Source: a virus. Taken from it: a stretch of 58,804 nucleotides of DNA. Every line of letters starts with the position of its first letter. The first letter of the stretch is position 1. Below, in pieces: positions 8,208 through 21,320 of this stretch. The stretch covers positions 1-58,804 of the IMG/VR virus record IMGVR_UViG_3300046777_001311. The stretch is one strand, 5' to 3'. Both the position numbers and the translations under genes were made by a program. Below the pieces are notes generated by a model. The model searched no databases. It was not told where the DNA came from and saw only the letters and a program-made list of their open reading frames with translations.

Positions 8208-8984
8208 ATGCAAAATACAGGTCAAATCGTAAGAGCTAAGAGTGAAAAGGATTTCACTTTAATTAGCAACAAGCTTCTTCAAGATTGTTCTATGTCTTTT
8301 GAAGAAAAGGGTATGTTAGTGTTTCTATTAAGCCTGCCTGAGGATTGGGTTTTATACAAATCAAATCTGCACGAGAAAACAAACCAGCCAAAGGGTACTG
8401 TTGATCGTGTTTTTAAGCTGCTTCAAGATAAGGGGTACATTGTAAGTGTCAGGGTAATTGATGAGAAAACAAAGGTTTTCCAAGGTTGGAATCATGTGGT
8501 TTATGAAAGCCCGACTACGGAGGATAGCCGACATCGACAAACGCCGGAGTCGGAGAATGCCGATATCGGTCAAACTGCCCCTATACAAATACACAGTATT
8601 ACAAATACACATATAAACAAAACAAAGAAAGAAAATATAAAAAGAAAGAAAGTTGATTTTGAGCCGCCTACTCTTGATGAAGTTAAAAGATACTTTATAG
8701 AAAACGGATACTCACCAATCAAAGGGGAGCAGGCTTTCAACTACTACTCAAGTTCAAACTGGGTAGATAAAAATAACAAGCAGGTTCTTAATTGGAAATT
8801 GAAAATGCAAATGTGGTTTAAGCCTGAGGATAAGATAGATGTTTCAAAGATGGCTTTTGAAGTTGAGAACCCTGAAAGCTATGAGGGTTACAACAAGTGG
8901 CTGCACGTGGACCCAAAATACACCAAGTCGCTGGACGAAAAAAATATATGGAGATACAAAGCAAAACCAATCGGATTTAAATAA
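8208..8984 (+). CDS. Winged-helix phage replication protein
   Basis: A 258-residue protein. Residues 10-95 look like a helix-turn-helix/winged-helix domain of the HTH_36 or replication-initiator type: SNKLLQDCSMSFEEKGMLVF, then a recognition-type segment TNQPKGTVDRVFKLLQDKGYI. A basic, Lys/Asn-rich linker (KTKKENIKRKKVD) follows. The C-terminal part (FNYYSSSNWVDKNNKQVLNWKLKMQMW) matches the DnaT- or helicase-loader-like end found in many phage replication proteins. It is the first gene of the rightward replication operon and lies behind the structured leader RNA. It probably binds the origin or loads the helicase. Confidence 0.75.
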   Translation: MQNTGQIVRAKSEKDFTLISNKLLQDCSMSFEEKGMLVFLLSLPEDWVLYKSNLHEKTNQPKGTVDRVFKLLQDKGYIVSVRVIDEKTKVFQGWNHVVYESPTTEDSRHRQTPESENADIGQTAPIQIHSITNTHINKTKKENIKRKKVDFEPPTLDEVKRYFIENGYSPIKGEQAFNYYSSSNWVDKNNKQVLNWKLKMQMWFKPEDKIDVSKMAFEVENPESYEGYNKWLHVDPKYTKSLDEKNIWRYKAKPIGFK

Positions 8985-9195: not shown

Positions 9196-9410
9196 CAACA
9201 CCGAGACAAAAGGCTATCGAACTAATTAGTAAATTAGGATTTCAAAGCGCCAAGTTGGTAGCCTCCAACATGACCTACGAGTTAGGATTATTAGCGCTAA
9301 CAGCAGACACAAAAGAGCATTCTGATGAAATAAAGGACAGAAGATTCTATTGGGACACAGTATTTGACATAATCAAAAAGGAATGGCATCAGAGAAAATT
9401 ATCAATTTAG
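9192..9410 (+). CDS. Hypothetical protein, 72 residues
   Basis: I do not recognise it. It is a small helical protein (RQKAIELISKLGFQSAKLVASN...) that overlaps the gene before it by four bases and the primase-helicase after it by 28 bases, so it is probably translationally coupled. It shows weak similarity in pattern to the previous small protein (KQMAINLVDSHY against KAIELISKLG), which may hint at an old duplication. Confidence 0.65.
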   Translation: MTTPRQKAIELISKLGFQSAKLVASNMTYELGLLALTADTKEHSDEIKDRRFYWDTVFDIIKKEWHQRKLSI

Positions 9411-11098
9411 AAAATAGAAAGACCTACATCGTAAACGCAGATCGTGTAGGTGAAAATTCTATGCCGTGTCCTGTATGCTCTCAAGACAGAAAGAAGAAGG
9501 ATGTTAAGTGCATGTCTTTCAATACAGTAGAGGGTGTAGGTAAATGTAATCATTGCGGCGCCCGATTTGTTAGGAAGAATGAGGACCGCGAGACACCAAG
9601 ATACGTGAGACCTGTACTACCATCAAATGTAACATCACTACCGGATAGACTTGTTGAATGGTTCAAGGAGAGGGGCATATCATCATCTACACTAATCGAC
9701 TTCAAGATTACGCATGGTAGACAGTTCTTCCCACAAGTATCTAAGGAGCGTAACTGCATAAACTTCAACTACTTCAGAAATGAGGACCTGATTAACGTGA
9801 AGTACAGGGACGCAGAAAAGAACTTCAGGCTTGTAAAGGATGCCGAACTAATTCTATATAATCTGGACAGCATAGACCAAAAATATGTTGTAATCACAGA
9901 GGGGGAGATAGATGCCATGTCCTACCACGAGGTAGGTGTTAAATCCGTAGTATCTGTTCCAAATGGAGCCTCAAAGAACAACCGTCTGCAATATATTGAC
10001 AACTGTATAGACGAGCTTGACGGAGTGGAAAGGATATATATAGCAACCGATGATGATGAGCCAGGAAGAGTTCTTCAAGAGGAGATAGCGAGACGATTAG
10101 GAAAGGAGAGGTGTAGACGTGTATCATTCTTTGGTAAGAAGGATGCGAACGAACTTTTGATAGCTGATCCATTAATGCTACCCAAGACATTGGAAGCCGC
10201 CGAAGAGTACCCCCTTGAAGGAGTGGTAACAGTAGATAATCTATCTGAAGATATATGGAGACTTAGAAGGGATGGTTTAAAGAGGGGTTGTGATATATCT
10301 ATAGACGAGTTCAATGACCTGCTAACATTTGTCCCTGGTTATGTTACAGGGGTAACAGGAATACCAAACCACGGTAAGTCGGAGTTCCTAGATCAGATTA
10401 TAGTTGACCTATCCGTAAAGCACGATTGGAGATTTGGAATATTCTCGCCTGAGAACTACCCACTTCAACTGCACTTTGCAAAGTTGGCAAGCAAGCTACT
10501 CGGAGTGTCCTTTAACGAGACAAATGACGCTCAAATCATATCGGCTATGAACTACTGCCGTGACAACTTCTTCTACATAGTACCGGAGGAGGATAATAGC
10601 CTCGATTCAATAATAGAACACGCTAAGAACCTTGTAAAGAGGTACGGCATAAACGCAATCGTTATAGACGCGTGGAATAAGCTTGACCACAACTACGTAG
10701 GTACAGAAACACAGCACATATCCAAAGAACTCGATAAGCTTATATCATTCTGCCGTAAGTATAGCGTACACGCCTTCGTTGTAGCACACCCAACTAAAAT
10801 GTCAAGAGACCCAAAGACACAAGCGTATAACGTGGCGACACTATATGACATGGCTGGATCCGCCCACTTCTACAACAAGATGGATAACGGTATATCCGTA
10901 TACCGAGAGTTCTTCCCCGATGGATCCTCACAGCCGCAAATCTATGTTCAAAAGGTAAAGTTCAAACATTGGGGGCAACAGGGTAGCGTAACACTACAAT
11001 ACGATGTTCCAACAGGTAGATATTATTTTTTTGGAAAAAGAGATAGAAGTTCTTATATTAGCAACGAATTTATCCACAAACAGGAATTAGATCTATGA
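9383..11098 (+). CDS. Bifunctional primase-helicase (T7 gp4 / Twinkle type)
   Basis: A 571-residue protein. An N-terminal zinc-binding domain has CPVC (about residue 29) and CNHC (about 55). A TOPRIM primase core follows with VVITEGEIDAMS (about 173) and YIATDDDEPGR (about 218). The C-terminal RecA-type helicase has Walker A GIPNHGKS (about 326), Walker B VIDAWNKL (about 430) and FVVAHPTKM (about 468). It primes and unwinds the replication fork. It is of normal size for the family and is the central enzyme of this operon. No phage DNA polymerase was seen, so it probably works with the host polymerase III. Confidence 0.95.
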   Translation: MASEKIINLENRKTYIVNADRVGENSMPCPVCSQDRKKKDVKCMSFNTVEGVGKCNHCGARFVRKNEDRETPRYVRPVLPSNVTSLPDRLVEWFKERGISSSTLIDFKITHGRQFFPQVSKERNCINFNYFRNEDLINVKYRDAEKNFRLVKDAELILYNLDSIDQKYVVITEGEIDAMSYHEVGVKSVVSVPNGASKNNRLQYIDNCIDELDGVERIYIATDDDEPGRVLQEEIARRLGKERCRRVSFFGKKDANELLIADPLMLPKTLEAAEEYPLEGVVTVDNLSEDIWRLRRDGLKRGCDISIDEFNDLLTFVPGYVTGVTGIPNHGKSEFLDQIIVDLSVKHDWRFGIFSPENYPLQLHFAKLASKLLGVSFNETNDAQIISAMNYCRDNFFYIVPEEDNSLDSIIEHAKNLVKRYGINAIVIDAWNKLDHNYVGTETQHISKELDKLISFCRKYSVHAFVVAHPTKMSRDPKTQAYNVATLYDMAGSAHFYNKMDNGISVYREFFPDGSSQPQIYVQKVKFKHWGQQGSVTLQYDVPTGRYYFFGKRDRSSYISNEFIHKQELDL

Positions 11099-11628
11099 TT
11101 AAGGAACTGACATCAATGGTTAAGCCACACATGGTAAACCAATTCTTAGAAACAATCATCAATAACGAATACGATAAAATAAAAGACGAAGCTATGGAAA
11201 TGCTTGAAGAGATACGCTGCAACATTGATGTTAAGCTGCATATCAAAATGTTTATGGAGGTTACACTCTCATGTTGCGCTGACGCATTTGGAACTACAGC
11301 CGATGAAATTCGAAGCCGCAATAGACGAAGCCACATAATAGACGCCAAAAGAGCCTACATGTGGATTGTAAAGGTATCAACAGGATGCACGCACAGATTC
11401 ATTAGCGACAACCTAGAGATGCACCACTCATCTGTTATACACCACCTCAACACAGTAGAGGCTTACCTAATGTATAACCCCGACTTTAAAACAAAACTCA
11501 ACTCTATCGTAACCGACTTAAAAAGAGTTGGATACACAGAGCCATCAGAGCAATTTGTTAACCATGTTAATAAAGCGGAGCAAAGAAAGAGAAGAAATAG
11601 GGATCGAATAAATAAGAACCGGTTGTAA
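11095..11628 (+). CDS. Stand-alone DnaA domain IV-like DNA-binding protein
   Basis: A 177-residue protein whose centre (ADAFGTTADEIRSRNRRSHIIDAKRAYMWI, then FISDNLEMHHSSVIHHL) matches DnaA domain IV. In DnaA the same order is a helix pair, a basic loop, and the signature D-H-[ST]-[ST]-V-x-[HY]-A; here it is HHSSVIHHL. There is no AAA+ ATPase domain, and the N-terminal 60 residues are unrelated helices. DnaA domain IV binds the 9-base DnaA box. Near-consensus boxes lie about 1.5 kb downstream (13155-13203), so a role in origin recognition or in titrating host DnaA is likely. The C-terminal tail is very basic. Its start overlaps the helicase stop (ATGA). Confidence 0.8.
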   Translation: MIKELTSMVKPHMVNQFLETIINNEYDKIKDEAMEMLEEIRCNIDVKLHIKMFMEVTLSCCADAFGTTADEIRSRNRRSHIIDAKRAYMWIVKVSTGCTHRFISDNLEMHHSSVIHHLNTVEAYLMYNPDFKTKLNSIVTDLKRVGYTEPSEQFVNHVNKAEQRKRRNRDRINKNRL

Positions 11629-13106: not shown

Positions 13107-13143
13107 AAACTTGACATTCTTGTCTCAAATATCTACTATACTT
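13107..13143 (+). promoter_or_regulatory. Possible promoter entering the origin locus
   Basis: CTTGACA, followed by TATACTTG about 23 bases after the TTG, resembles the Bacteroidota promoter with one mismatch in the -7 box and a long spacer. It would transcribe the repeat region, possibly as a replication primer or regulatory RNA. The evidence is weak. Confidence 0.3.
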
Positions 13144-13152
13144 GCGACAGCC

Positions 13153-13203
13153 ATTGTGGAAAATAATCACCAGAATCAAGCTTATTGTGGAAAATAATCC
13201 ACA
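13153..13203 (+). repeat. Tandem DnaA-box-like repeats
   Basis: ATTGTGGAAAATAATC occurs at 13153-13168 and again at 13184-13199, exactly 31 bases apart. Each copy holds TGTGGAAAA, the reverse of TTTTCCACA, which is 8 of 9 to the DnaA box TTATCCACA. A third site, TAATCCACA (13195-13203), is also 8 of 9 and makes an inverted pair with the second copy (TTGTGGA/TCCACAA). Confidence 0.65.
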
Positions 13204-13436
13204 AAAGGGTATCGGAAACTTATAGATTGTCAAATTAAGTAAAATATGATAGACAAATAGATTTGATGTTAAAGAATGGACATCAAAGATGAACTTCAAG
13301 TTTCCTATACCATTTCGTTGACGCCAACAAGATGGTTAGCAGTCCCAACCAACCGTAGACACATAGTCGACACACACCCCCCCCACCAACAAACCAAAAT
13401 AGCCCAAGCGTGGAACACGCAGTCAAAATATATCCC

Positions 13437-13452
13437 CGTTTCACGTGGAACA
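13437..13452 (+). promoter_or_regulatory. parS-like site 1
   Basis: CGTTTCACGTGGAACA matches the bacterial chromosomal parS consensus TGTTTCACGTGAAACA at 14 of 16 positions, with the central CACGTG core intact. It is the most degenerate of four such sites between 13.4 and 15.2 kb. Confidence 0.6.
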
Positions 13453-13571
13453 GCAGAACGTAACAGAACATAGTGTGGAGGGGGTCATATATACATCCGG
13501 AGTGTACATATCGGTGGGCAAACCGCGTTTTTGCGAAAGGGGTGGGTCTCTAGTTAGTGTACGTTTCACAC

Positions 13572-13638
13572 TAACCTTAGTGTACATTGTACACATACAT
13601 ATTGTACATTTTACAATAACCTTAGTGTATGCTGTACA
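13572..13638 (+). repeat. Iteron-like direct repeats
   Basis: TAACCTTAGTGTA-nnn-TGTACA occurs at 13572-13593 and 13617-13638 with a 45-base period, and a partial third TTAGTGTAC lies near 13554. The intervening DNA has further TGTACA/GTGTACA half sites and the palindrome CACTAA-CC-TTAGTG (13569-13582). This is typical of binding sites for a replication or partition protein. Confidence 0.55.
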
Positions 13639-13647
13639 CTTTCTTCG

Positions 13648-13777
13648 TTATTTAGATTCATTCTAAATTAGGACTGCATATTGCAAATGTCAATTTATTT
13701 TTGTATGGCAGTTTGCTATAGTGAAAAAAGTTGACATTTCCAAATTTCACAGCTTATTTATACTCATTCTAAATTAG
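13648..13777 (+). repeat. Pair of 24-base direct repeats
   Basis: TTATTTA-nnn-TCATTCTAAATTAG occurs at 13648-13671 and 13754-13777, with 22 of 24 bases identical and a spacing of 106 bases. Similarity continues weakly for about 35 bases after each copy, including TTTGTC/ATGTC and TTTATTT elements. It is probably another protein-binding repeat in the origin locus. Confidence 0.5.
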
Positions 13778-13808
13778 CAGAAAATTTGCTTTTGTCATTT
13801 TTATTTCG

Positions 13809-13832
13809 TATTCGTGCGCGCGCGGGAATACC
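13809..13832 (+). other. Palindrome around an alternating GC tract
   Basis: GTATTC, then GTGCGCGCGCGG, then GAATAC. Eight alternating G/C bases are striking in such an AT-rich region and could adopt Z-DNA or a hairpin. The function is unknown. Confidence 0.45.
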
Positions 13833-13930
13833 TATTACAAAGAATAGAGGGCAAAAGTGGTAATACAAATTTATTTCGCTGATAATCAATCATTTAGATA
13901 CGAGTCGAAAAAAACAGATAAAAAAAAATG

Positions 13931-13965
13931 CAAAAATAGTTGACTTTACTATTTCAATCGCCGTA
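13931..13965 (+). promoter_or_regulatory. Possible promoter before the 14125 gene
   Basis: GTTGAC, then about 21 bases after the TTG a TATCATTG box, one mismatch from TAnnTTTG. It is followed by about 160 non-coding bases before ATG 14125. This is the third TTGAC-type element in the locus and is of modest quality. Confidence 0.35.
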
Positions 13966-14068
13966 TCATTGCAGGGCCAATAGGGAATAAACGTATTCAG
14001 ATTGACAAGGTGAAAAAAAAGACATTAAGAAAAAAGGGACATGTGCCTAATAGGATAACTATGCCCTT

Positions 14069-14091
14069 GTGGAGACCACACGTAAAACGGA
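14069..14091 (+). repeat. GTGG-AGA-CCAC hairpin repeat, copy 1
   Basis: GTGGAGACCACACGTAAAACGGA here and GTGGAGGCCACACTATAAACGGA at 14387-14409 share the same small hairpin (GTGG/CCAC) and downstream AAACGGA. The copies flank the small gene at 14125-14328. The nearby GGATAACTATG is also duplicated (near 14052 and 14099). Confidence 0.5.
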
Positions 14092-14124
14092 ACTTAATGG
14101 GATAACTATGTAAATTTTAAAGCT

Positions 14125-14328
14125 ATGAATATAATAGATTCGGCATCGGTATACTATGCACAACCCGATGCACGTAAACAAGTGCATAAAGTTGGACGAA
14201 TTACGCGAACACATAAGAAAATTTGGGTGCAAAATGCACGTGAGGTAAGTTTCAATGCCGTTTGTAAGGTAATTGAAAAAAGTGAACGTGCACAAAAGCA
14301 ACGTGATGTGAGACGTGCGAAGCGTTAA
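14125..14328 (+). CDS. Small basic protein in the origin locus, 67 residues
   Basis: ATG 14125. The protein is Arg/Lys/Gln-rich, with a basic tail KSERAQKQRDVRRAKR and a predicted helix (REVSFNAVCKVIEKSER). It lies between parS-like sites 1 and 2 and between two copies of a hairpin repeat, so it may be a DNA-binding protein that acts on this locus. I do not recognise a family, and there is no ParB-type signature. Confidence 0.55.
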   Translation: MNIIDSASVYYAQPDARKQVHKVGRITRTHKKIWVQNAREVSFNAVCKVIEKSERAQKQRDVRRAKR

Positions 14329-14329
14329 T

Positions 14330-14345
14330 TGTTCCACGTGGAACA
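14330..14345 (+). promoter_or_regulatory. parS-like site 2 (perfect palindrome)
   Basis: TGTTCCACGTGGAACA is a perfect 16-base palindrome that differs from the parS consensus only at the symmetric fifth and twelfth bases. The fifth position is variable in known parS sites. It lies immediately after the stop codon of the small basic gene. Confidence 0.75.
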
Positions 14346-14386
14346 TTGAATTTAGCAACGGCTAAATGTAACTATATATTAGCATA

Positions 14387-14409
14387 GTGGAGGCCACACT
14401 ATAAACGGA
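14387..14409 (+). repeat. GTGG-AGG-CCAC hairpin repeat, copy 2
   Basis: The second copy of the element at 14069-14091, between parS-like sites 2 and 3. The stem GTGG/CCAC is kept while its loop differs (AGG for AGA), a pattern that fits structural or protein-binding constraint. Confidence 0.5.
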
Positions 14410-14430
14410 CGAATAGTAAACAAGGTACAT

Positions 14431-14446
14431 TGTTTCACGTGAAACA
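14431..14446 (+). promoter_or_regulatory. parS-like site 3 (exact consensus)
   Basis: TGTTTCACGTGAAACA is an exact, perfectly palindromic copy of the canonical bacterial parS sequence bound by chromosomal ParB (Spo0J). It lies about 100 bases after site 2, in the gap before the gene at 14554. An exact 16-base match is not expected by chance in a 59 kb window. Confidence 0.88.
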
Positions 14447-14553
14447 TTGGTGCATATTCCTTAGTGGGATAGGTCTATACTTTGGCGGCTTCAAAGTTGC
14501 AAGGTGTAGGTTTAGGTACTATGCTACGCTGAAACCAATTTAAATTTCATACA

Positions 14554-14886
14554 ATGAAACAAGTATCTTTTGTATTAACGCAAGAAAACGATGTTAAATT
14601 TTACTTGCGTGGAACTTTCGAGTTCGAGGGTCAAGACGTTCAAAACGAAGTCTTTTTCCGTATCGTTAAATTCATGGAACGTGTAAAGCGTTTCAAGATG
14701 AAAACAAATTTCAAGTTCGGTAAAAAGTTTACCGTTGACATGAAAGTTGACGGGAAAACGTACCGAAGTACCGACCTATTCTTTGAGTTCGATGATTCAG
14801 GAACTGACTTCAAAGGTGGCATACGTCTTAATAAGAACAACACCTTTCGTCTACATGAGGTTTTAACTGAAATGGTTGAATCTTAA
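14554..14886 (+). CDS. Hypothetical protein, 110 residues
   Basis: I do not recognise it. It is beta-rich and Phe-rich, with alternating hydrophobic strands (VKFYLRGTFEFEG, KFTVDMKVDGKTYR). Codon use is normal and it is followed by a clear terminator, so it is a real monocistronic gene beside the parS cluster. The GGCGGC motif at 14889 lies between its stop and the terminator. Confidence 0.65.
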   Translation: MKQVSFVLTQENDVKFYLRGTFEFEGQDVQNEVFFRIVKFMERVKRFKMKTNFKFGKKFTVDMKVDGKTYRSTDLFFEFDDSGTDFKGGIRLNKNNTFRLHEVLTEMVES

Positions 14887-14906
14887 TTGGCGGCTATTCA
14901 AAATTC

Positions 14907-14930
14907 AAGGGGGCTTCGTGCCCCTTTTTC
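14907..14930 (+). terminator. Intrinsic terminator
   Basis: AAGGGGGCTTCGTGCCCCTTTTT: a GC-rich stem with a TTCG-type loop and a T tract, 20 bases after the stop of the 14554 gene. It ends a single-gene transcript. Confidence 0.85.
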
Positions 14931-14952
14931 ATTCACTAAAACTTAACGTAAA

Positions 14953-15129
14953 ATGATTACTCTCACAGTGCTCTCAGTTTTATTCACCATTTTATGTACA
15001 ATCAAAGTACAAAAGCAAAAAAGGTACGGACAATTTTCAATAGATAGCGGTTGGTATTTCGCTCAACTCATGAGTTTAGGATTCATAATCTCAATGGCTG
15101 TAGTGGCTATACTCGCTTACCTACCATAG
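14953..15129 (+). CDS. Small membrane protein, 58 residues
   Basis: ATG 14953 to TAG 15127. Two hydrophobic segments, LTVLSVLFTILC near the start and SLGFIISMAVVAILAYL at the end, flank a basic loop (KVQKQKRYGQ). It is probably a two-pass inner-membrane peptide. Its stop abuts parS-like site 4. Confidence 0.55.
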   Translation: MITLTVLSVLFTILCTIKVQKQKRYGQFSIDSGWYFAQLMSLGFIISMAVVAILAYLP

Positions 15130-15145
15130 TGTTCCACGTGAAACA
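15130..15145 (+). promoter_or_regulatory. parS-like site 4
   Basis: TGTTCCACGTGAAACA matches the parS consensus at 15 of 16 positions; the single difference is at the variable fifth base. It fills the 46-base gap between two small membrane-protein genes. Confidence 0.82.
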
Positions 15146-15568: not shown

Positions 15569-16816
15569 ATGGAAGAAGAAAAAACTCCAGAAACAATCCT
15601 CCTATACAACGGAGAAGAAGTCAGCACCGACACAACAACGGGTTGCTTTGACTATGGTCAATATCAAGGCCAACTATACGCCAATGGTGATGATGATGTT
15701 ATCATCTTGACAAGTGGTGATACATGTCACCGCGATGATGATTGGCACACCACAAATTGCGGTGATACATTCCACGAAGATGAACAGGACAGCCTTGACA
15801 TAATCTATGCGGACTATGATGGTGAGTACGCCTATTCATCAGATTGTACCTATGGTATAGTAGACCGTAGGGGTCATGAGGGGTATTGGTTAGACACATA
15901 TCATGACCATGAAGCCGTATATTCAAATAGAGATAGCACTCATTTCATTGACTCACAAGTAGCACGTGAACATGACTACATCTTTGATGATAATCAAGAC
16001 GATTGGGTACACATAGATGATTATGAGGGTGATAATGATGATGATGAGGGTGAGGATACGTCCTCTTATGTTAAGTCATATCATGGCTATTCAAGACAGT
16101 TTGTTTGTGACTCTTCGGCGGCTTGGAAGTTTGGTGTCGAGGTCGAGAAGGAGGACTGCGATGCTAAGACCATGGAGTACCCCGATACTATATACAACGC
16201 TGTCAAGTGGTGTAAAGAATCGGACGGGTCTCTCAATGACTACTCTGGCTTTGAGTTGGTGTCGCCCGTGTATGACCTCATGGACAAGGATACTTGGTTG
16301 CGTGACTTTTCACACCCACTTATCGAACCGCTACTCAATGCTAAACATAGTTCATCATGTGGTGGTCACATCCACATATCATCAAGTATGTATACACCTG
16401 ATGAGATTATGTTAGGACTTAGCGGCTTCCTACCTATACTGTACAGCCTTTACAAGAGACGTATGTTTGCCGACTACGCACGTACTAAGAAGAAGTATCA
16501 GTACCTAACTGAGAAAACTAAGAGGGCGAGTGTATATGTGCAAGATAGGACTTGTGAGTTCCGTATCTTCCCTGCTGTACGTAGTAAGGATAACTTGATA
16601 TGGCGGCTTGACCTACTACGCATCTTCATTGACAACTTCAATGCCTCTGAGCGTGATGTCCTCAAGATGTTGTGTAATACATCACACCCCCTTCATATTC
16701 ATATCAAGAATATGGTTGGTGATGATAAAATGACTGAGAAGATTGATGAGTTCATCGGCTTCAGTAAGACGTGGAATAACTTTAATTTAGATAATGACGA
16801 TAAAACAATCAAATAA
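15569..16816 (+). CDS. Amidoligase (COOH-NH2 ligase, glutamine synthetase-like fold)
   Basis: A 415-residue protein. The first 180 residues are extremely Asp/His/Tyr-rich with repeated D-x-x-Y/H units, of the kind phages place before such domains. The catalytic part has the ordered family motifs FGVEVEKE (about 188), ESDGSL (about 217), GFELVSP (about 226), CGGHIHIS (about 266) and CEFRIFPA (about 330). Amidoligases join a carboxylate to an amine using ATP. Iyer and colleagues described phage members next to glutamine amidotransferases and predicted peptide modification. The next gene is such an amidotransferase, three bases away. The substrate is unknown; envelope, coat or small peptide targets are possible. 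Confidence 0.8.
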   Translation: MEEEKTPETILLYNGEEVSTDTTTGCFDYGQYQGQLYANGDDDVIILTSGDTCHRDDDWHTTNCGDTFHEDEQDSLDIIYADYDGEYAYSSDCTYGIVDRRGHEGYWLDTYHDHEAVYSNRDSTHFIDSQVAREHDYIFDDNQDDWVHIDDYEGDNDDDEGEDTSSYVKSYHGYSRQFVCDSSAAWKFGVEVEKEDCDAKTMEYPDTIYNAVKWCKESDGSLNDYSGFELVSPVYDLMDKDTWLRDFSHPLIEPLLNAKHSSSCGGHIHISSSMYTPDEIMLGLSGFLPILYSLYKRRMFADYARTKKKYQYLTEKTKRASVYVQDRTCEFRIFPAVRSKDNLIWRLDLLRIFIDNFNASERDVLKMLCNTSHPLHIHIKNMVGDDKMTEKIDEFIGFSKTWNNFNLDNDDKTIK

Positions 16817-16818
16817 TT

Positions 16819-17721
16819 ATGTGCATAGCAATCTTAAACCCTGAAGATGTTACTCTTGATAAGAGTGTTCTTCGCACGTGTTGGGACAATAACACGGATG
16901 GAGCTGGTATTCTATACGTAGATGGCGGCGTCCTAAAAACACACAAGGAGATGTCTAACTTTGATTCATTCTATGATGAGTATCTACGTATACGTAGTGC
17001 TCACAAGGAGTCTCAAGTAGTCATACACTTCCGTATATCTACACATGGCAAGGTCAATGAGACTAACTGCCACCCATTTATTGTAGATGATTATTGGGGT
17101 TTTGTGCATAACGGTATCATATCCAATGCACCACACCATGCTGATTACAGCGACACCTATATGTTTAATCAAGAGGTACTTCAAAAGCTACCTAAGGATT
17201 GGTTATTCAATGACGCCATCTATGAACTTGTTGTAGGTTACATTGGCTCATCTAAGTTGCTGTTTCTTAATGCCGACAACGATGCCTATATTCTTAACGA
17301 AGATATGGGTGTGTGGGACTTAGGCTGTTGGTTTAGTAACAAGACGTACAAAGAGTCACGCTACTTTGACTATGGCGGTAAGCAGGTATGGAAGTCGGCG
17401 GCGACCCCTACTATCACCTCCTCCTCTACTACTAAAGATTATTCTACTAAGTGGTGGGACCGTAATGATTACTCACCTAAGTGGGAGTGGGATGATAAGA
17501 AAAAAGATTATGTTAACAAGTCGGCGGCTGCGGATGTTTTTGATGATGAGGATGTGGATGTGGACAACTACCCATACGCCGAGTGGCCGACTGATGCGTC
17601 TGAGTTATTCATAGACACTTGCGATGGCTGTGATTCTCCAGAGGTGCTTGTCGCCTACGATACATCATACAACGCTTGCCTATGTAAAAGCTGCCACGAT
17701 GATTTGTACACACCCTTTTAA
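16819..17721 (+). CDS. Class II glutamine amidotransferase-like protein
   Basis: A 300-residue protein that begins MCIAIL, so Cys2 would be the N-terminal nucleophile after Met removal, as in Ntn-type amidotransferases. It also has NNTDGAGI (about 26), HFRISTHG (about 75), NCHPF (about 88) and FVHNGII (about 97), the order expected for the glutaminase active site. The domain ends near residue 190. The rest is a Trp/Asp-rich region with a CDGC...CLCKSC cysteine set that may bind zinc. It probably releases ammonia from glutamine for the amidoligase encoded just upstream. The pair is one functional unit. Confidence 0.82.
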   Translation: MCIAILNPEDVTLDKSVLRTCWDNNTDGAGILYVDGGVLKTHKEMSNFDSFYDEYLRIRSAHKESQVVIHFRISTHGKVNETNCHPFIVDDYWGFVHNGIISNAPHHADYSDTYMFNQEVLQKLPKDWLFNDAIYELVVGYIGSSKLLFLNADNDAYILNEDMGVWDLGCWFSNKTYKESRYFDYGGKQVWKSAATPTITSSSTTKDYSTKWWDRNDYSPKWEWDDKKKDYVNKSAAADVFDDEDVDVDNYPYAEWPTDASELFIDTCDGCDSPEVLVAYDTSYNACLCKSCHDDLYTPF

Positions 17722-21016: not shown

Positions 21017-21320
21017 AAGGTTATCGAGAGCTGATAAGATACGCCAGGCATACGAACTAAAGAAAAGAGTTCAAGATGCCTTGATACTTGCAGGTCTTGA
21101 CATTAATCAGAAGTATATGCCATACGCTAAGTTGTTTGAACTATTGTATGTGTCTATTGAACCTGATGTTAATGAGAGACGTGTTAGACTTAGGCGTATT
21201 ATTAGCGGCGTTCCAAAGTTAGAGGACGCCTTTTGGGTAGAGATACTATACAGGTACTGCTCAGAAATAGGAAAGGTATCAGAGCATTATTGCTCATTTG
21301 AATTTCAATCTAAGTTTTAA
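20970..21320 (+). CDS. Hypothetical basic protein before recombination genes, 116 residues
   Basis: A very basic N-terminus (MKRKAKRVQVRKPTIKRLSR) is followed by helices; a GCGGC motif lies near 21211. Its stop overlaps the ATG of the exonuclease gene (TAATG), so translation is coupled. It may be a DNA-binding accessory of the RecE/RecT-type unit. I do not recognise a family. Confidence 0.55.
   Translation: MKRKAKRVQVRKPTIKRLSRADKIRQAYELKKRVQDALILAGLDINQKYMPYAKLFELLYVSIEPDVNERRVRLRRIISGVPKLEDAFWVEILYRYCSEIGKVSEHYCSFEFQSKF

Follow-up and report, generated by a model that had tools for sequence, protein, structure and literature searches.

The window, by which we mean the whole 58,804-nucleotide stretch of DNA that was analyzed, is a near-complete genome of a tailed Bacteroidota phage. 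It encodes a portal, a terminase, an endolysin, a tail fiber and virion proteins, together with replication and recombination functions comprising a Toprim primase-helicase, a DnaD-like loader, a DnaA-domain-IV protein, RecT and an exonuclease. Judged against its relatives, about 1.7 kb is absent between the window ends, an interval in which one related record (L155) carries two long open reading frames (ORFs), neither of them ParB-like. Among isolates, the closest matches come from Flavobacterium, Cellulophaga and Riemerella-type phages, with ~26-42% protein identity, primase homologues are found mainly in Bacteroidota MAGs, and divergent promoters of the Bacteroidota form TTGAC...TATATTTG lie at ~8.03-8.07 kb; the nearest phages, the MAG homologues and the promoters point to Bacteroidota as the probable host phylum. 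No tyrosine integrase (PF00589) was found in the window or its relatives. The replication genes are followed by an array of matches to parS, the short DNA tag by which bacteria move their own chromosomes. Querying a phage collection at the DNA level with the parS region gave no match, nor did Rfam over 12.5-16 kb. The features of this part of the window are:

8208-8984, plus strand: DnaD-like helicase loader or replication initiation protein (phrog_186, 1.2e-14)
9383-11098, plus strand: Toprim primase/DnaB-like helicase (profile matches)
11095-11628, plus strand: small protein with a DnaA C-terminal DNA-binding domain (Bac_DnaA_C, 6.5e-8, above cut-off)
13143-13204: conserved repeat pair, DnaA-box-like (13155 and 13186), boxes on the reverse strand; candidate origin element
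13437-13452, no strand: parS site A, CGTTTCACGTGGAACA, one mismatch, C at position 1; orthologues in L005, L014 and L007
13946-13979, plus strand: probable Bacteroidota-type promoter into the segment with sites B to D, predicted from an alignment in which L005 has TTGAC...TATGTTTGCA here
14125-14328, plus strand: 67-aa ORF between the promoter and site B
14330-14345, no strand: parS site B, TGTTCCACGTGGAACA, exact; one base past the stop codon of ORF 14125-14328
14431-14446, no strand: parS site C, TGTTTCACGTGAAACA, exact universal consensus; intergenic; L008 has a site at the equivalent position
14554-14886, plus strand: 110-aa ORF between sites C and D, no family match
15130-15145, no strand: parS site D, TGTTCCACGTGAAACA, exact; directly 3' of the TAG stop of the 58-aa ORF 14953-15129

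The preliminary description of this DNA had reported four parS 16-mers, one of them an exact consensus, and all four are present. At up to three mismatches to TGTTTCACGTGAAACA, matches occur at 13437, 14330, 14431 and 15130 and nowhere else in the 58.8 kb, while dinucleotide shuffles of the window held 0.33 matches on average at the same threshold and none of 100 shuffles reached four. Compared with the 16-bp palindrome TGTTYCACGTGRAACA, three of the four sites are exact and the one at 13437 has a single difference, C for T at base 1. The window would be expected to contain 0.0026 sites with no more than one mismatch, giving a Poisson probability of ~2e-12 for four or more. All four lie within 1.7 kb of mostly non-coding or small-gene DNA.

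The same description had placed a candidate origin beside the cluster, which is plausible but weak: two DnaA-box-like repeats and a protein with DnaA domain IV encoded upstream hint at such a role. The repeat pair at 13143-13204 aligns in four related records (L005, L007, L008 and L015), and the adjacent DNA does not. The DnaA-domain protein (11095-11628) adjoins the primase-helicase and may be an origin-binding protein. Downstream of the array, at 15569-17721, lie adjacent amidoligase-like and class-II glutamine amidotransferase-like genes, a pair possibly involved in peptide or cell-wall modification.

Relatives that cover the parS region fall into L005/L014, L007 and L008/L015, and sites were present in every one of them, as the preliminary description had required of its proposal. 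L005, L007 and L008 each have four sites within one mismatch; among the truncated contigs, L014 has three and L015 two. Site D has orthologous sites in L005 and L007, and in L008 a site likewise follows the counterpart of the small gene that precedes site B (14125-14328). The DNA around the sites is strongly diverged, with large parts that cannot be aligned between relatives, and their 20-bp flanks are mostly near random identity, L005, the closest relative, being the exception at sites A and D. Between lineages the spacing of the sites, their order and their Y/R variant all change. Persistence of the sites, even though most flanks are unalignable and the spacing differs, argues that the motif itself is under selection, and the near-random flanks indicate that its copies were kept or regained independently of the surrounding DNA. 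More distant relatives (primase identity of 44% or less) have no parS sites. Together with the site-free Bacteroidota isolates tested (below), this indicates that phages of this kind can do without the sites.

The phage appears to have no ParB of its own. Neither the window nor any of 18 related records contains the ParB_N domain (PF02195), and a Bacteroidota ParB HMM of our own making, run at maximum sensitivity, gave no significant match in the window or its relatives; a complete ParABS cassette, with parB in cis, is not what this phage carries. The earlier statement that parA and parB are both missing therefore holds for parB by both searches; as to parA, no ParA-type family was recognized among the ORFs scanned with Pfam, some large virion ORFs having been scanned with PHROGs only. 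The preliminary description had suggested scanning the host chromosome for the motif and for parB, and Bacteroidota genomes have both. The 14-bp parS core occurs in 76 of 80 Bacteroidota genomes at a median of two per genome, reversed-pattern controls giving about zero. One control palindrome, just two changes away from parS, was discarded. The chromosomal sites sampled include the window variant CGTTTCACGTGGAACA with its unusual C at position 1; the site A 16-mer is identical in one Bacteroidota genome (G069). By motif and by use in the host phylum, the four phage sites can thus be classed as chromosomal-type parS. All eight Bacteroidota genomes checked encode a canonical ParB, and one such protein can be aligned to PDB structures of ParB, Spo0J and Noc across the CTPase and helix-turn-helix domains. 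On Bacteroidota chromosomes the two parS sites of a pair frequently lie ~1.9 kb from each other, as though a single conserved gene sat between them (G076, G089, G091, G098, G102, G110, G114, G118, G123, G130, G131, G141 and others); in the genomes checked among G069-G078, parB was on contigs other than that of the parS pair.

Because no ParB was found in the phage, the same motif serves in the host phylum and the ParB of the Bacteroidota genomes checked is canonical, recruitment of host ParB is the economical reading, and judged from sequence the host protein is very probably recruited to the four sites. The proposal of recruitment made in the preliminary description is in this way partly supported: it passed the sequence test, that is, conservation and match to Bacteroidota parS. 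The alternative that the motif is the operator of a different phage-encoded protein, with a coincidental likeness to parS, has nothing specific in its favor beyond the many small ORFs of unassigned function, and is very improbable given the exact 16-bp host consensus and the way in which the phage sites vary just as chromosomal ones do, with Y/R at positions 5 and 12 and the C variant at position 1.

What recruited ParB would do is a separate question. We give an even chance to the reading that the sites are functional parS for the Bacteroidota chromosomal ParB and that the phage genome uses them as a borrowed centromere. It draws on the position of the cluster beside the replication genes and the conserved DnaA-box-like repeat, on the missing tyrosine integrase and on a plasmid precedent, in which unstable plasmids were stabilized by chromosomal par genes together with a single parS (PMC7022226, PMC4368675). 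Upon phage entry, host ParB-CTP dimers would load at the four sites, and the loaded ParB would close into clamps and slide over the replication and early region, forming a partition complex. Host ParA would then position and partition the phage genome like an extra origin domain, and the unintegrated genome could persist and be inherited with the lytic cycle delayed, as a carrier or pseudolysogenic state. The phage would supply only the centromere half of ParABS and borrow both proteins, in the manner of phi29 in Bacillus. No lysogeny or plasmid maintenance genes were recognized in the phage, which counts against a long-lived carrier state. If host ParB does load on the phage, an unintegrated phage would gain active partitioning for ~64 bp, the carrier states known in Bacteroidota phages would have a simple explanation, and ParB would be a host factor common to phages of many lineages.

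Host ParB may instead act as a transcription or replication switch, its spreading silencing the early region and the candidate origin while ParB is free, until phage copies become numerous enough to dilute ParB and lift the block, so that lysis timing is copy-number-sensitive. The sites do belong to the early/replication region, with a probable promoter upstream, and three of them follow stop codons directly or are intergenic. ParB in excess silences promoters and a rep gene beside parS (PMC4368675). Another phage group, described below, has a parS pair that follows a promoter-like sequence and precedes the terminase gene, an arrangement that looks more operator-like. In the window phage, however, the sites are not set against promoters, their positions vary by lineage, and native ParB levels may not silence. 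A switch is an unlikely account of this array. Less probable again is a decoy, in which replicating phage DNA would titrate ParB, and with it SMC loading, off the host origin and so arrest host segregation. Four sites per phage genome against a chromosomal median of two, amplified by replication, would outnumber those of the host, but titration leaves both the clustering near the candidate origin and the constant number of four unexplained. ParB loss is mild in many bacteria, which makes the benefit of a decoy doubtful. We rate as slightly more improbable still that phage-bound ParB loads host SMC/condensin, which would compact and disentangle replicating DNA near the origin and aid packaging; the cluster does lie near replication genes, and in many bacteria SMC is loaded at ParB-parS (e.g. 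PMC9564211).

Two exact parS sites 8-38 bp apart were found in at least 120 viral contigs, where essentially none are expected by chance. Among the contigs listed, 47 of 118 new loci have three or more sites at up to two mismatches, with a ParB gene nearby in only one; the multi-site loci form ~40-60 groups by shared proteins, span a G+C of 0.28-0.73 and include phi29-like phages. Full records were checked for ParB in 50 cases, namely 46 viral contigs (45 new and G003, of the window's phage group) and four isolate phages. A ParB-domain match was found in seven of the 50, one of them strong, and none in 39 of the 45 new multi-site records. Host contamination was considered as the source of these contigs, and the longest ORFs sampled were found to include terminase, endolysin, primase, phi29-type polymerase and tail genes; many of the contigs are accordingly phage, though single ones may not be. 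The only multi-parS viral record checked with both a strong ParB domain and a tyrosine integrase (L225, G173) is possibly a phage-plasmid, an ICE or host DNA. Multi-parS contigs were compared with a set in which most contigs had a single site, and integrase depletion was not significant (1/45 versus 4/50, P = 0.37); it is given no weight here.

Two kinds of contig stood out. In one phage group, the parS pair is exactly 8 bp apart and just downstream of a TATAAT-like element, with the terminase large subunit gene directly downstream where checked, which looks like a host-ParB operator (L196, L199-L201, L205, L206, L208, L210, L216-L218, L223, L229, L232, L235 and others). Phi29-like contigs with several dispersed parS sites (L042, L088, L123, L231, L246, L263, L283, L305 and L310) in several cases encode a protein-primed DNA polymerase B or a phi29 gp9-type tail knob. 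Clusters of parS were absent from crAss001, DAC15, B124-14, phi14:2, phi38:1, FCL-2, RAP44, elemoE, tooticki, PJN03, Manatee Spring podovirus, phiKZ, phiCbK, phage K, SPO1, G and other isolates. Listeria phage A511 (NC_009811.2, L334) has one exact parS at 21138-21153, at the start of gp51, with a chance expectation of ~1e-4.

These surveys suggest that parS arrays with no accompanying ParB occur widely among viral contigs, the sample, which may include some contamination, showing breadth and not frequency. As a tentative generalization, to which we give somewhat less credence than to the borrowed centromere in the window phage, the centromere-half-only form of ParABS could be a widespread and repeatedly evolved strategy in which unrelated non-integrating phages of hosts in many phyla carry two to eight host parS sites and use host ParB-CTP for inheritance or silencing. 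Carrier states and pseudolysogeny would then have a general molecular basis that needs neither an integrase nor phage partition genes.

Three known systems invite comparison. Like the chromosomal ParABS of Bacteroidota, the array uses the very same parS motif, its copies packed into a few kb; it differs in that the phage has the sites alone, four against a median of two, with no parA recognized. Phage-plasmids such as P1 and those of mycobacteriophage cluster A encode their own ParA and ParB with private centromeres, and the likeness to them is that the array too would serve the partition of an extrachromosomal phage genome. The third system is phi29 (Salasmaviridae), a virulent, non-integrating phage without parB that has several host-type parS sites, four in both cases and all exact in phi29 (10445, 15903, 17243 and 18760); the related B103 has two. 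A parS phage without ParB is thus not unprecedented. Host Spo0J (ParB) is reported to bring about the uptake of the phi29 genome into spores (Meijer et al. 2005, cited in PMC9437464). The phi29 sites are, however, scattered through 8 kb that is mostly coding, in a 19-kb protein-primed genome with a sporulating Firmicute host, whereas the window phage is unrelated, ~60 kb in size and of Bacteroidota, a host group not known to form endospores, with its four sites in 1.7 kb beside replication genes. Our search of open-license papers found no survey of parS in phages. Besides the evidence that such arrays occur widely without ParB, the novelty lies in a Bacteroidota phage whose parS sites form a cluster near its replication region.
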